From Miltoncostaea oceani (GTDB lineage: Bacteria > Actinomycetota > Thermoleophilia > Miltoncostaeales > Miltoncostaeaceae), in the NCBI RefSeq assembly GCF_018141545.1, contig NZ_CP064356.1, positions 806,001-870,000 on the forward strand: a stretch of 64,000 nt of DNA, written 5' to 3'. Positions 46,681 to 52,529 of this stretch are shown one piece after another; position 1 is the first letter of the stretch; every line of letters begins with the position of its first letter. The position numbers and the translations under genes were made by a program. A model generated the notes under the pieces. It was given only the letters and a program-made list of their open reading frames with translations, searched no databases and was not told the DNA's origin.

Positions 46681-46709
46681 GAGGCGCCGCCGACCGCGGG
46701 CGGCGCCTC
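46681..46709. terminator. Bidirectional terminator-like hairpin
   Basis: GAGGCGCCGCC-GACCGCG-GGCGGCGCCTC, an 11-bp perfect stem between the stops of the 3-hydroxyacyl-CoA dehydrogenase and zinc alcohol dehydrogenase genes. Confidence 0.7.
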
Positions 46710-46724
46710 GCCCCATGCGGGACC

Positions 46725-47798
46725 TCAAGGGGTGATCGTCACCTTCACCACGCCGTCCTCCTGGTTGGAGAACAGGGGGTAGGCCTCCTCGATCTCGTCG
46801 AGGCTGAACCGGTGCGTGATGAGCTGCTTCAGGTCGAGGCGGCCGATCTTCACGAGGTTCATGAGGGAGCTCAGGCGCTTCTTGCCGCCCGGGCAGAGGG
46901 TGGTGCGGATGTCGATGTCGCCGATGCCGTAGATGAACGGCTCCAGCGGGATCGTCACCTTGTCGCCGTAGACGCCGAGCGAGCTGACCATGCCGGCCGG
47001 CCGCACCGACTTGAGGCAGTTCTCGAACGTCTCCTGGATGCCGAGCGCCTCGATCGCGACGTCCGCGCCACGCCCCTCGGTGAGGGCCTTGATCTTCGCG
47101 ACCGGGTCCTCCTGGGTGTAGTCGATGACGACGTCGGCGCCCATGGTGCGGGCCATCTCCAGGCGCTTGGCGTTCGAGTCGACGGCGATCACCAGGCCGG
47201 CGCCGCGGAGGCGCGCGCCCGCCGTCGCGCAGAGCCCGATGGGGCCCTGGGCGAACACGACGACGGAGTCGCCGAGCTGGACGTCGGCCGTCTCGACGGC
47301 GGAGATGCCGGTGGTGGCGATGTCGGTGACGAACAGGACCTCCTCGTCGGAGAGCCCCTCGGGGATGCGGGCGAGGTTCGCCTGGGCGTACGGCACCCGG
47401 AAGTACTCGGCCTGCACGCCGTCCATGGAGTTGCCGAGCCGCCAGCCGCCGATGATCCCCCACTGGTCCTCGTAGCCGGCGCACTGCGACAGGTCGCCCG
47501 ACTGGCAGAAGTAGCAGGCGCCGCACGGGGTGATCGCACCGACGACGACGCGCTCGCCGATCTCGTATCCGGTGACGGCGTCGCCGAGCTCGTGGATGAC
47601 GCCGGCCGGCTCGTGGCCGACGACGCGTCCCGGGGCGACGGGGTACTCCCCGCGCCAGATGTGCGAGTCGGTGCCGCAGATGGTGGTGGTCGTGACCTTC
47701 ACGATCGCGTCGGTCGGCCCGCACCGCGGGATCGGGACCTCCTCGATGTGGATGTCGCGCACGTCCTTGAAGACGGCGGCCCTCATGGTGTCCGGCAT
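46725..47798 (-). CDS. Zinc-dependent medium-chain alcohol dehydrogenase
   Basis: 357 residues from ATG 47798 (AGGGGGAACGCC upstream). Catalytic zinc ligands in ICGTDSHIW and GHEPAG; structural zinc cysteines C-x2-C-x2-C-x7-C in CGACYFCQSGDLSQC; the NAD(P) Rossmann core begins near VVVFAQGPIGLCATAGAR. Of the formaldehyde/threonine/sorbitol dehydrogenase-like clade. The substrate is uncertain; the neighbouring beta-oxidation genes hint at alcohol or aldehyde catabolism. Divergent from the two-component operon. Confidence 0.95.
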   Translation of the reverse strand: MPDTMRAAVFKDVRDIHIEEVPIPRCGPTDAIVKVTTTTICGTDSHIWRGEYPVAPGRVVGHEPAGVIHELGDAVTGYEIGERVVVGAITPCGACYFCQSGDLSQCAGYEDQWGIIGGWRLGNSMDGVQAEYFRVPYAQANLARIPEGLSDEEVLFVTDIATTGISAVETADVQLGDSVVVFAQGPIGLCATAGARLRGAGLVIAVDSNAKRLEMARTMGADVVIDYTQEDPVAKIKALTEGRGADVAIEALGIQETFENCLKSVRPAGMVSSLGVYGDKVTIPLEPFIYGIGDIDIRTTLCPGGKKRLSSLMNLVKIGRLDLKQLITHRFSLDEIEEAYPLFSNQEDGVVKVTITP

Positions 47799-48023
47799 GG
47801 CGTTCCCCCTGTCCGCGTGGCGGCCGGTCCTCCCGACCCTCCCCCCGGGCCGCGACGGGGGCAACGGGCGCCACGGTCCCCCGGGCCGCCCCGCGGGCGA
47901 CCCGGCCCCCACGGGATCCCGGTGGTCGTGCGGGAACCGCCCGCCCGCCGGACCCGCCCGCCCGCCCGGGCGGTCGCTCACCCGTTCGGGTGAGTCGTTG
48001 CCTCCCGGGCCCCCGGCGGCGCA

Positions 48024-48029
48024 TAGTGT
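48024..48029 (+). promoter_or_regulatory. -10 box TAGTGT, leaderless sensor kinase
   Basis: TAGTGT, 5 bases, GTG at 48035. This places the start 15 codons inside the longest open frame and removes an unlikely Arg-rich lead. Confidence 0.55.
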
Positions 48030-48034
48030 GGATC

Positions 48035-49261
48035 GTGACGAGAGGGGTCGCGGTGGGGCGTGGGAGCGCACAGGTGGCGGTGGTGGCGCCCGGGGCGCGG
48101 GGCGCCGAGCCGGGTCTGCTGCGCCGCGCCGACGCCGCGGGCCAACGCCTGTTCCGCGAGCTCGTCGTCTCCCGGATCGCGTGGTCGGCGGTGTCGGAGG
48201 CGAGCCGCCTGGTGGCGGTCGACGTCGTCGCCTTCTCGGTCCGGGTGGCGGGGTGCGACCACCCGCAGCCGTGCCACCTGCACCACTGCCACGACCACCT
48301 GGAGGTGCGGGCCGTCCTCGGCAACCGGGGGCCGCGGCTGCCGGGGCTGCGCCTCGCGGACGGGGAGGGCGTCGGCGGCCGGGTGCTGCGCACGGGCGCC
48401 CCGGTGGCGGTGCGCGCCTACGGGATGGCGCCGTTCGACCCGGACCTCGTGGCCCTGGTCACGGAGGAGGAGGGCATCCGCTCGGTCGTCGGCGTCCCCG
48501 TCTCGTTCGGCGGCGAGGTGCGCGGCGTGCTCCATGCGGGGTTGCGCCACGGGGGTGGGGTGGGCCCCGCCGCGGTGGAGGCGTTGTCGCGCCTCTGCAC
48601 GTACGCGGGGGCGGCGATGGCGGCGGCGCGCGACCGGGCGCGGGTGGAGGAGGTCGCGGCCCTCCGGGAGCGGCGGCGGCTGGCGCGGGCCCTGCACGAC
48701 GAGTTCGGCCAGCGGCTGTTCGGGATCGGGGTGACGGGTGGCCTCGCGCGGGAGAGCGCGGCGGCGGGACGGCCGGACCTGGTGGCGCACCTCGCGGGCC
48801 TGGAGCGGCAGATCGCGGGGGCGTCGGCGGCGCTGCGGGCGACGTTGCGGGCCCTCGACCGCCCGTCGGCCCCGGCGGGGGCGTTGGCGGTGAAGCTCCG
48901 CGAGGACGCCGCCGCGTTCTCGGCGCGGACGGGGGTGGCGTCGCACCTGCTGGTGCTGGGGGAGCCGGCGCCGATCGACGAGGCGCGCGAGGACCTCCTG
49001 GTGCGGGTCGTGCAGGAGGGGCTCCGCAACGTGGAGCGCCACGCCCGCGCCCACGAGGTGGTGGTGACCCTGGCGTTCGGGCGGGGGACGGTGGAGCTGG
49101 TGGTGCAGGACGACGGCGCCGGGTTGTCGCCGGGGATCGGCGGCAACGGCGTGGGGCTCGGGATGTTGCGGGAGGAGGTCGGCCGCCTCGGCGGCGACGC
49201 GCGCCTCGCGCGGAACGAGGACGCGGGCTGCACCCTCCGGACGCGGCTGCCGCTGGGGTGA
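48035..49261 (+). CDS. GAF-domain sensor histidine kinase, NarL-family type (HisKA_3), with Cys/His cluster
   Basis: 408 residues, soluble. A GAF domain spans about 40-205. It is followed by HisKA_3 with phospho-acceptor His in ARALHDEFGQRLFGIGV (about 221) and a HATPase_c domain (EGLRNVERHARAHEV, VVQDDGAGLSP, GNGVGLGMLREEV). Near residues 74-88 the GAF domain has an insert with C74, C80, C85 and H76, H81, H83, H84, H86, H88, which could bind metal, haem or an iron-sulfur cluster. It overlaps its response regulator (GTGA). No transmembrane segment, so it senses a cytoplasmic signal. Confidence 0.92.
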   Translation: MTRGVAVGRGSAQVAVVAPGARGAEPGLLRRADAAGQRLFRELVVSRIAWSAVSEASRLVAVDVVAFSVRVAGCDHPQPCHLHHCHDHLEVRAVLGNRGPRLPGLRLADGEGVGGRVLRTGAPVAVRAYGMAPFDPDLVALVTEEEGIRSVVGVPVSFGGEVRGVLHAGLRHGGGVGPAAVEALSRLCTYAGAAMAAARDRARVEEVAALRERRRLARALHDEFGQRLFGIGVTGGLARESAAAGRPDLVAHLAGLERQIAGASAALRATLRALDRPSAPAGALAVKLREDAAAFSARTGVASHLLVLGEPAPIDEAREDLLVRVVQEGLRNVERHARAHEVVVTLAFGRGTVELVVQDDGAGLSPGIGGNGVGLGMLREEVGRLGGDARLARNEDAGCTLRTRLPLG

Positions 49262-49890
49262 GCCGCAAGCCCCACACCGTCGTCGTGGCGGACGACCACC
49301 CGATCGTGATCGCCGGGATGCGCCTGCTGCTGTCGGGGTCCCGTTTCTTCGAGCTGGTGGGGGAGGCGCGGACGGGGGCGGAGGCGATCCTCCGGTGCGA
49401 GCAGTACCGCCCCGACGCCCTCCTCCTCGACCTGCGCCTCCCCGACCTCCCGGCGGCGACGATCTGCACGCGGATCAAGGAGCGCCACCCGGGGATCGCG
49501 ATCGTCATCCTCACCGCCCACGCGGAGGAGATGGCGGTGCGCGGGTGCCTGAAGGCGGGTGCGGCGGCGTGCCTCTTCAAGGACGTGAACGAGCAGAGCC
49601 TCCTCGCCGCCCTGATGCAGGTCGTCCACGGCCGGGCGGTGATCGACCCGCGGATCGCCGGGGCGATGCTCCCCCGCCGCGGGGCGAACGGCGCGGACGG
49701 CGCCCTCACCGGCCGTGAGCACGAGGTGCTCCTCCTCATCGCCCGGGGGCTCACCACCCAGGAGATCGCCGACGAGATCGGGCTGTCCCCGAACACCGTG
49801 AAGAGCCACTCCCGCTCCCTCTTCTCGAAGCTCGCCGCCCACAACCGCGTCCAGGCCCTCGCCGTCGCCACGGAGCGCGGCCTGATCTGA
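49258..49890 (+). CDS. NarL/LuxR-family response regulator
   Basis: 210 residues. Receiver domain with acidic pair in VVVADDHPIV (D11-D12), phospho-acceptor D58-type Asp in ALLLDLRLPD, and Lys in FKDVNEQSL. LuxR-type helix-turn-helix at the C-terminus: LTGREHEVLLLIARGLTTQEIADEIGLSPNTVKSHSRSLFSKL. It is coupled by a 4-base overlap to the kinase. Targets are unknown; the divergent alcohol dehydrogenase gene and the tandem repeat downstream are nearby candidates. Confidence 0.95.
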   Translation: MSRKPHTVVVADDHPIVIAGMRLLLSGSRFFELVGEARTGAEAILRCEQYRPDALLLDLRLPDLPAATICTRIKERHPGIAIVILTAHAEEMAVRGCLKAGAAACLFKDVNEQSLLAALMQVVHGRAVIDPRIAGAMLPRRGANGADGALTGREHEVLLLIARGLTTQEIADEIGLSPNTVKSHSRSLFSKLAAHNRVQALAVATERGLI

Positions 49891-49920
49891 GGGGGCGGGT
49901 CCGGGGTCCCCGGGGGTCGG

Positions 49921-50471
49921 GGTCCGATCGGACCCCGGAGCGTCGGTCGATCGGCCGGCGCCCCCCGGCCAAATGGACCTCGGTGTTGCGGCCGAGTGGC
50001 CGGATGCCCGGCGGCCAAGTGGACCTCGGTGTGTCGCCAAGTGGCCGGACGCCCGGCGGCCAAGTGGACCTCGGAGCGTCGGTCAAGTGGCCGGCGACCG
50101 TCCGGCCAAATGGACCTCGGTGTCACGGCCAAGTGGCCGGAGCTCATCCGGCCGAATGGACCTCGGTGTCACGGCCAAATGGACCTTGGAGCGTGGGTCA
50201 CGTGGCCGCTCGACCGTCCGACCAAGTGGACCTCGGTCTCACGGACAAGTGGCCGGCGACCCTCCGGCCAAGTGGACTCGGGTGTCATGGACAAGTGGCC
50301 GGCGACCCTCCGGCCAAGTGGACTCGGGTGTCATGGACAAGTGGCCGGCAACCCTCCGGCCAGTGGACCTCGGTGTCACGGCCAAGTGGCCGGAGCTCAT
50401 CCGGCCAAGTGGACCTGGGAGCGCCGGCCGAGTGGTCGGCGACCCTTCGGGCGATCGACCGCCGGCGTCTG
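49921..50471. repeat. 24-copy degenerate 23-bp tandem repeat
   Basis: Units begin at 49921 and recur every 23 bp (two junctions of 22, one of 24) to about 50471. Two alternating forms occur: A, GGCCAAGTGGACCTCGGTGT plus CAC; B, GGCCAAGTGGCCGGAGCTCA plus TCC. B contains the inverted repeat GGCCA-N2-TGGCC. One A-A slip (50150, 50173) shows the true unit is 23 bp, not 46. Outer copies are the most degenerate. All three forward frames stay open because 23 is not divisible by three and the unit lacks stops, but no gene is claimed. It fills the whole 630-bp gap between the response regulator and the marR promoter. Confidence 0.9.
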
Positions 50472-50520
50472 CGCGGTCACCCCGGGACACCATTAGCCCA
50501 CGAACGTTTGGCTTCTGTCA

Positions 50521-50526
50521 TATAGT
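50521..50526 (+). promoter_or_regulatory. -10 box TATAGT, leaderless marR-type gene
   Basis: TATAGT, 6 bases, GTG at 50533, in an unusually AT-rich 30-bp stretch just after the repeat array. It is the best -10 match in the window. Confidence 0.7.
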
Positions 50527-50532
50527 TGCCGG

Positions 50533-51024
50533 GTGCCGGTCGCCGTGGACATCCCCCTCGAGGACCTCCTCGGGTGGCGCCTCTCGGTCGCGGGGAGGTT
50601 GATGCGGTCACGGGCCGACCAGGTCCTCGCCGGGGTCGCGCCGACGACGGCCCAGGGGATCGGCGTCCTGATGCGCCTCGCCGAGCGGGACGGGACCACC
50701 CAGACCGACCTCGCCCGCCTCCAGCGGGTCGAGCCGCCGTCGATGTGCCGGATGGTCGACCGCCTCGAACGCGACGGCCTCGTCGAGCGCCGGCCCCGCC
50801 CCGGCGACCGCCGCGCAGTCGCCGTGCACCTCACCGACGCCGGCCGGGACGCCGCCGCCGCGGGCGCCGCCACCGCCGCCGCCATCGACGACGCCGTCTT
50901 CCGCGGCCTCAGCCCCGACGAGCGCCGGACCCTCGCCGCCCTCCTCGGCCGCGTCCTCACCGAGCTCGCCGACCCCGCCGACCCCGCCGAGCCCGCCGAC
51001 CCGGCCGCCGGAGGGGACGCGTGA
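50533..51024 (+). CDS. MarR family transcriptional regulator
   Basis: 163 residues. Winged helix: MRLAERDGTTQTDLARLQRVEPPSMCRMVDRLERDGLVERRPRPGDRRAVAVHLTDAG, the usual MarR recognition helix and wing. Flanking helices at both ends form the dimer interface; the tail is rich in Asp-Pro-Ala. GTGA overlap with the efflux gene makes it the probable repressor of that transporter, acting at the TATAGT promoter it shares. Confidence 0.95.
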   Translation: MPVAVDIPLEDLLGWRLSVAGRLMRSRADQVLAGVAPTTAQGIGVLMRLAERDGTTQTDLARLQRVEPPSMCRMVDRLERDGLVERRPRPGDRRAVAVHLTDAGRDAAAAGAATAAAIDDAVFRGLSPDERRTLAALLGRVLTELADPADPAEPADPAAGGDA

Positions 51025-52529
51025 GCACCCCGGCCCCGGCCCCGGCCCCCCGTCCCCGGCCCGGGCACGGCGACCCCGTCCCGACCCAGTCGCTGCGCCT
51101 CACCCTCGCCGGGCTCATCGTCGCGTCCGGGGCCTACGCCCTCATGCAGACGTTCCTCATCCCGGCGCTCGGCGAGCTCGAACGCGAGCTCGGCACCACC
51201 ACCACGTGGGTCACGTGGACCGTCACCGCCTACCTCCTGAGCGGCGCGGTCAGCACCCCCATCGTCGGCCGCCTCGGTGACCAGTACGGCAAGAAGCGCC
51301 TCATGATGATCACCCTCGGCGTCTTCCTGCTCGGCTCCGTCGGCGCGATCTTCGCCCCCAACGTCGGGGTGCTCATCGCGTTCCGGGTCGTGCAGGGCGT
51401 CGGCGGCGCGTCGTTCCCGCTGAGCTTCGCGATCATCCGCGACGAGTTCCCCCCCGGCCGCATCCCCACCGCGATGGGCACCGTCTCCGCCGTCCTCGGC
51501 GTCGGCGGCGGCGTCGGCATCGCCCTCAGCGGCGTCATCGTCGACCACCTCTCGTGGCGGTGGCTGTTCGTCGTCAGCGCCGTCCTCGTCGCCGCGGCCC
51601 TCGTCATGGTCTGGCGGTTCGTCCCCGAGTCCCCCGTCCGGGCCCCGTCACGCCCCGACATCACCGGCGCCCTCCTCCTCTCCGCGGGACTGGTCGCGCT
51701 GCTGCTCGGCGTGACGGAGGGGGAGCGGTGGGGGTGGGGCTCCCCCGCCATCGTCGGCCTGCTCGCCGGGTCCCTCGCCCTCTTCCTCGTCTGGGGACGG
51801 TACGAGCTGGGGGTGGCCGACCCGATGGTGGACATGCGGATGCTCGCCCGCCGCCCCGTCCTGTTCACCAACATCACCGCGGCGCTCTCGGGCTTCGCGC
51901 TCTACATGACCTGGGTGATCCTCCCCGGCTTCTTCCAGCTGCCCCGCGGCCTCCCCGACGACCTCGCGGCGCTCGGGGACTACGGCTTCGGCACCACCGT
52001 CACCGTCGCCGGCCTCTGGATCCTCCCGACGTCGGCGGTGATCGTCGTGTCGGGACCGGTCGCCGGGCTCATCGGACGCCGGTACGGCTCCCGCCCGCCC
52101 CTCGTCGCCGGGATGGTGCTCCTCGCCGTCGGCTCCGCGATGATCGCCCTCTTCCACGACACCCCCCTCCAGGTGTCCGCCTGCTTCGCGATCTGCGGCG
52201 TCGGCATCGGCTTCTCCTTCGCCGCGATGCCGCGGCTCGTCTCCGACGCCGTCTCCCCGTCGGAGACCGGCGTCGCGAACGGCATGAACACCGTCATCCG
52301 GACCGTGGGCGGCGTCGTCGGCGCCCAGGTCGGCGCCGCGGTGCTCACCGCCAGCGCCGTCGCCGGGGGCTCGGTCCCCGCCGAATCGGGCTACGTCACG
52401 GCGTTCTGGATCGGCGCGGCCGCCGCCGTCGCCGGCGCGGTGACGGCGGCGTTCGTCGCCCCCCGCCGCTGGGTCGCCCACCGGGCGCCGGCGCCCGTCC
52501 CCCGGCAGGTCGGCGCCCGCCGGTCGTAG
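51021..52529 (+). CDS. MFS drug/solute exporter, DHA2-like (14-TM)
   Basis: 502 residues, GTG start overlapping the marR stop. About fourteen hydrophobic segments. Motif A GRLGDQYGKKRLM after TM2; antiporter motif C in VLGVGGGVGIALSGVIVDHLSWRWLF. ALSGFALYMTWVILPGFFQLPRGL is characteristic of DHA2 proteins. It should expel hydrophobic or cationic drugs or metabolites with proton antiport. A six-base-stem hairpin follows the stop. Confidence 0.95.
   Translation: MSTPAPAPAPRPRPGHGDPVPTQSLRLTLAGLIVASGAYALMQTFLIPALGELERELGTTTTWVTWTVTAYLLSGAVSTPIVGRLGDQYGKKRLMMITLGVFLLGSVGAIFAPNVGVLIAFRVVQGVGGASFPLSFAIIRDEFPPGRIPTAMGTVSAVLGVGGGVGIALSGVIVDHLSWRWLFVVSAVLVAAALVMVWRFVPESPVRAPSRPDITGALLLSAGLVALLLGVTEGERWGWGSPAIVGLLAGSLALFLVWGRYELGVADPMVDMRMLARRPVLFTNITAALSGFALYMTWVILPGFFQLPRGLPDDLAALGDYGFGTTVTVAGLWILPTSAVIVVSGPVAGLIGRRYGSRPPLVAGMVLLAVGSAMIALFHDTPLQVSACFAICGVGIGFSFAAMPRLVSDAVSPSETGVANGMNTVIRTVGGVVGAQVGAAVLTASAVAGGSVPAESGYVTAFWIGAAAAVAGAVTAAFVAPRRWVAHRAPAPVPRQVGARRS

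Follow-up and report, generated by a model that had tools for sequence, protein, structure and literature searches.

Head-to-tail arrays of a 23-bp-spaced palindromic site family, concentrated between convergent genes in Miltoncostaea

What is a long run of 23-bp tandem repeats doing between the gene of a response regulator and that of a MarR-family regulator, and does it belong to either of them? The question is raised by a locus in a 64,000-nucleotide stretch of the Miltoncostaea oceani genome (the window, which is the whole stretch of DNA analysed). On the plus strand, a GAF-HisKA_3 histidine kinase (47990..49261, Pfam; start codon uncertain) is followed by a NarL/LuxR-type response regulator (49258..49890, Pfam and gene call), the 3' end of which abuts the array, and beyond the array, on the same strand, lie a MarR-family regulator (50533..51024, Pfam) and an MFS transporter (51021..52529, Pfam). 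The Pfam matches (LuxR-type; MarR and MFS) bear out the neighbours named in an earlier note on this DNA, which had counted 24 copies of the unit in front of a marR-efflux operon and had offered a protein-binding array (plasmid-like iterons included), an RNA-structure attenuator or a recombination-prone locus as explanations.

The periodicity of the array is beyond chance. TRF reports a 46-bp period with 82-84% matches at 49953-50450, with a 23-bp sub-period, and the self-match of the array is 0.51 at a lag of 23 bp and 0.61 at a lag of 46 bp against 0.29 in dinucleotide shuffles (n=500; z = 11.8 and 16.2, respectively), 0/500 of which exceeded 0.35; at lag 22 it is only 0.34, and at lag 24 it is at background. 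The exact 23-bp period claimed earlier is thereby confirmed, as both lags lie above all 500 shuffles. The alternating variants and the period slips described in the same note are also real: two unit variants (..TGGACCTCGG and ..TGGCCGG) alternate, the super-period is 46 bp, and the slips are of 22 bp and 24 bp. Clear palindromic 16-bp sites with the core GKCCA-N2-TGGMC occupy 49965..50440 (no strand assigned; TRF, register count and shuffles), and by register they start at 49965, 49988, 50011, 50033, 50056, 50079, 50102, 50125, 50148, 50171, 50194, 50218, 50241, 50264, 50287, 50310, 50333, ~50355, 50378, 50401 and 50424. These amount to about 21 clear units (~49965-50440), and two or three degenerate ones (near 49920, 49943 and 50447) bring the total to 23-24, so that 24 copies was a fair count. 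The leading degenerate units, GGGTCCGATCGGACCC and GGTCGATCGGCC (49920..49960, no strand assigned, sequence read), start 29 bp past the response-regulator stop codon, the former within an 18-bp perfect palindrome, GGGGTCCGATCGGACCCC; the trailing one is GGGCGATCGACCGC (50443..50465, no strand assigned, sequence read). CCRNNYGG cores number 17 in the array versus 2.5 in shuffles. A palindrome had been noticed in one variant, and the palindromic core stands, but it is not restricted to that variant: GGCCA-AG-TGGCC is exact, and GGCCA-AG-TGGAC is palindromic with one asymmetric position.

Two familiar kinds of repeat were considered for this anatomy and rejected. A coding repeat would not be expected to have a unit of 23 bp, which is not a multiple of 3, or slips of 22 and 24 bp, and for these reasons the ORFs of 166-209 aa that cross the array are mechanical; a CRISPR array has unique spacers, which are absent, and each of the two alternating halves that make up the 46-bp period is found repeatedly within the array. 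Rfam gave nothing above gathering score for the window array, with two sub-threshold chance hits only.

The array belongs to a dispersed family. With the window array as query, a search of its own genome (G000; three contigs, C1-C3, 4.54 Mb) returned 68 matching places at E<=1, the array itself included, and 29 ranges at E<=0.001 on C1; C2 and C3 gave no significant match, so the family is chromosomal (dnaA lies at C1:390). A palindromic matrix applied to 484 kb of fetched stretches found 209 sites scoring 12 bits or more, where a Markov null gave 2. The consensus of the family is GKCCA-N2-TGGMC, and its best form, AGGTCCAATTGGACCT, is a perfect 16-bp palindrome. In the fetched stretches of the main contig the sites form at least 26 clusters, of which 21 contain four or more sites, and the chromosomal position of the clusters is not clearly non-uniform (KS p=0.15). 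On C1 of G000, no cluster was found in the 0.9 Mb around the origin (between 2884 kb and 101 kb), and this gap is longer than expected by chance (p=0.02). One array (L051:7793-8458) is interleaved with a second repeat (GTTTCYCGGAGTGCACTCAAAGCTGGGGCC-like), with resulting spacings of 19, 44 and 63 bp.

The family extends to the relatives of this species and hardly beyond them. Among four genomes of the genus, one per species (G000, G001, G002 and G003, the last two being sister genomes), site pairs spaced by 23 bp number 103, 21, 21 and 20 (control, 0), and exact GKCCAATTGGMC occurs in 20, 4, 18 and 15 places (control, 0-1). A single 23-bp pair, chance-like in sequence, was found in one of the 38 genomes from the rest of the order, and a single pair in 2 of the 395 genomes (of 399) covered from the rest of the class. 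The site family is thus essentially restricted to one small high-GC genus. The check that the earlier note had proposed, for the same unit elsewhere in the genome and in relatives, accordingly finds it in 26 or more clusters of the main contig as well as in all three congeners, and because all four genomes of the genus carry it, it is not the property of a single strain without relatives, an outcome the note had named as fatal to its idea. The site family was not found in viral contigs or in the plasmid collection PLSDB, and a plasmid or phage origin was rejected on that account; the suggestion of plasmid-like iterons is unsupported as well, since the arrays are spread along C1, which carries dnaA (at 390), with no significant match on C2 or C3 and none in PLSDB.

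The clusters are far from evenly distributed with respect to genes. Judged by GC-frame gene calls rather than curated annotation, and with all gaps of 60 bp or more from these stretches as background, the 42 clusters with clean neighbours fall into 24 convergent, 15 tandem and 3 divergent gaps, against 32, 148 and 116 background gaps, respectively; the 20 of 62 clusters left out comprise 8 at contig edges, 7 that fall within called ORFs and 5 next to gaps in the gene calls. Convergent gaps thus hold 24/42 clusters versus 11% of background gaps (p=7e-11), divergent gaps are depleted (p=2e-5), and the median distance of a cluster is 63 bp to a 3' end and 179 bp to a 5' end. Within tandem gaps the upstream 3' end is the nearer in 11/15 clusters, which is not significant (p=0.12). 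Two further placements were noted: near-identical units lie at L052:7725-8040 (G000 C1 1627725-1628040), behind an rRNA operon and ~340 bp past its 5S gene (5S end L052:7381), and in two species clusters (L158:6102-6218 and L162:8074-8190) lie within a long low-scoring ORF adjoining flagellar rod/hook-like genes, which may be miscalled or a FliK-like gene.

The wide scatter of the clusters along the chromosome and their preference for gene 3' ends and convergent gaps show that they are not promoter elements, and the position of the window array before the marR-efflux operon, of which the earlier note had made it an element, is coincidental. An operator or attenuator specific to the marR-MFS operon would draw on the distance of the array from the marR start (about 90-120 bp upstream), and it is already largely refuted: 25 or more further clusters are located elsewhere, chiefly at 3' ends, and the MFS orthologue in G001 (86% identical) directly follows a 3-hydroxyacyl-CoA dehydrogenase-like gene and has neither marR nor an array beside it. 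The promoter-like sequence moreover falls outside the array, being an AT-rich TATAGT segment right before the marR GTG (50505..50532, plus strand, sequence read) and ~80 bp past the last clear unit, which is a candidate -10 of a leaderless transcript; a search for the sigma-70 consensus found no match. We therefore regard such an operon-specific element as extremely improbable. On the other side, the response-regulator orthologue in G002 (89% identical) is followed at ~20 bp by a convergent gene, again without an array, and as orthologues of both flanks do without it, neither flank needs the array. In G000 the array lies at the junction of two segments that differ in history. Compared with G001, where the two genes are adjacent, ~4.3 kb of the window (46700-51020; dehydrogenase, kinase, regulator, array and marR) separates the dehydrogenase-like gene from the MFS gene.

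Comparison between species indicates what is kept of the sites. In three orthologous intergenic regions of G002 and G003, 91/96 bases of the 12-bp cores are identical (95%), versus 305/523 of the other aligned intergenic bases (58%; p=3e-14), and the short site spacings of the congeners are exactly 23 bp in 36/36 cases, though most of the 7-nt spacers differ (in G000, 112 short spacings are of 23 bp, 8 of 22 and 5 of 24). The conserved core footprint, together with an invariant spacing across divergent spacers, implies purifying selection on the sites. The number of sites per cluster ranges from 1 to about 21, and most clusters in G002 and G003 have only one or two. Several loci keep clusters across species, as seen in stretches that were chosen as site-bearing and with that bias. 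The gap between fliS and a glucan-phosphorylase gene (both named by sequence reading) has an array in three species, of 8, 4 and 4 sites with different unit sequences, one genome per species being compared. The locus may be recombination-prone, as proposed earlier: units turn over between species, while core and period stay.

Turnover of this kind could also be produced by a functionless selfish satellite, the units of which would be amplified by slippage and gene conversion and tolerated between convergent 3' ends as the place of least harm. Locally homogenised runs with near-identical units (L052, L062), the differing units at the orthologous fliS locus, the genus restriction, and orthologues of both window flanks that adjoin no array would all suit it; the contrast between cores and surroundings in the sister species, the spacing that stays at 23 bp while spacers diverge, and the clusters kept at several loci across species would not, and we consider this explanation unlikely.

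Many two-site elements in G002 and G003 have, in addition, a one-sided conserved arm (GAAA..., TGCAGGCGYTTCGGGG) at a fixed distance from the first site, and the composite of arm and two sites (~85 bp) is also conserved between orthologues and was not clearly found in G000; arm-bearing elements are those at L130:9169-9254, L133, L136, L141, L147, L151, L129, L135, L149 and L138. A conserved hairpin in the arm was rejected as inconsistent on inspection by eye. At one orthologous pair (L135:8009-8046 and L147:7162-7199) the 7-nt spacer appears inverted, reading cgacgcg in one element and cgcgtcg in the other when both are set in one orientation, which suggests inversion between palindromic arms.

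Are the palindromes conserved as DNA sites or as RNA hairpins? Across 195 distinct sites (137 from G000 and 58 from congeners), the variable positions of the half-sites show no excess symmetry and a deficit at the central position, a count on sites picked by score threshold, a selection that could mask weak covariation, though not a strong signal. Pairing between neighbouring sites is 0.826 in the congeners versus 0.817 (sd 0.015) for shuffled partners, and in G000 it is below that of shuffled partners (0.651 versus 0.719, sd 0.012). As half-sites vary independently and neighbours lack excess complementarity, RNA hairpins are not what is preserved; this freedom from pairing constraint is the pattern that would be expected of a double-stranded DNA site read by a protein dimer. 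Fold z-scores are inconsistent among arrays (-0.8 to -3.1 in the window, -0.1 in L058, -6 and -10 in L062), and the RNA-structure attenuator of the earlier note thus finds no support in pairing statistics or folding; with Rfam equally unsupportive, the RNA-structure reading was rejected. A broader version of it, in which REP/BIME-like elements form RNA or single-stranded hairpins at gene ends and act as terminators or mRNA stabilisers, arises because palindromes in direct repetition are always able to self-fold. The 3'-end and convergent placement is as reported for REPs (PMC3733652), several site pairs in the congeners form inverted repeats of 39 bp that are near-perfect, and the L062 array folds far better than shuffles; we nevertheless find this version doubtful, given neighbour pairing no higher than for shuffled partners, half-sites without covariation and the weak folding of the window and L058 arrays, and neither a U-tract terminator at the window array nor a Y1/RAYT transposase in the genome was found.

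On balance, these sequence patterns lean towards arrays of dimer sites for a putative protein that would form a nucleoprotein block at operon ends. Each ~12-16-bp site (GKCCA-N2-TGGMC) would consist of two independent half-sites that a protein dimer recognises in double-stranded DNA, and the 23-bp centre-to-centre placing would let adjacent dimers cover the DNA nearly gap-free. Clusters with between 1 and about 21 of these sites, just past stop codons and above all between convergent genes, could then serve as a block or anchor, either curbing read-through and collisions of transcription or holding topologically stressed DNA in place. Here we infer the binding protein, its occupancy of the sites and the blocking or anchoring effect. 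An anchor at operon ends is plausible because DNA in convergent gaps is enriched in positive supercoiling (GapR-seq, PMC8360656). How dimers would stack cooperatively along a single face of the helix is not obvious, since 23 bp make 2.19 helical turns, not a whole number. Also against the dimer-block reading, array length varies widely, one or two sites make up most G002 and G003 clusters, and 7 of the 62 clusters lie in called ORFs. Of the ideas in the earlier note, the protein-binding array is in general terms the best supported, and its tie to the marR-efflux operon does not hold. More speculatively, the genus may possess a nucleoprotein system of its own, in which a dimer coats 23-bp-spaced palindromes and sets a boundary between converging units, as a bacterial insulator or roadblock with its own site family. 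If a protein does read the sites, they would constitute a defined genome-wide set of double-stranded DNA arrays at convergent gene ends, and a handle on operon insulation or on the anchoring of positively supercoiled DNA; even if selfish, they would be a palindromic repeat family with REP-like placement and without the REP hairpin, tag or transposase.

How, then, does the family compare with known systems? REPs are short palindromic extragenic repeats, clustered and found mostly at 3' ends in convergent or unidirectional gaps, and BIMEs bind proteins (PMC2817692, PMC3733652); REPs are defined by a GTAG or CGTC tag that stays unpaired at one end of their stem-loop (PMC3733652), and a dedicated transposase is reported to be lacking for the CGTC type. 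Like GTAG- and CGTC-tagged REPs and BIMEs, including Neisseria dRS3, the family consists of short palindromes, many per genome, clustered and extragenic at 3' ends, and its gaps are of the REP kind (24 convergent, 15 tandem and 3 divergent clean cases). Unlike them, it keeps a strict 23-bp head-to-tail register, whereas REPs and BIMEs are mainly inverted dimers. GTAG was not found beside the sites, and CGTC occurs only inside the palindrome, paired with GACG; PF01797 (Y1 transposase) had no match in the own genome, in a search whose control matched in 5/14 genomes; and the complementary changes of a stem-loop are absent from both half-site covariation and neighbour pairing. With tag, Y1 transposase and conserved pairing all missing, REP/RAYT membership was rejected. 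Minisatellites (VNTRs) share the tandem units, homogenised runs and period slips, but the core palindrome of this family is selected across loci and species and is dispersed in at least 26 places. Iteron and operator arrays, such as plasmid iterons, parS and Noc-type site families, comprise palindromic half-site pairs at regular spacing, dispersed or clustered. The present sites have the same two-half-site palindromes, regular spacing, dispersed or clustered arrangement and double-stranded DNA footprint, and a palindrome with half-sites apparently read independently, at a fixed spacing, is what a dimer-operator array would present; they differ in being dispersed over a chromosome at 3' ends instead of restricted to an origin or partition locus, and C2 and C3 have no significant match. 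The site family resembles REPs and BIMEs in placement and dispersal, and operator and iteron arrays in the anatomy of its sites though not in their location.
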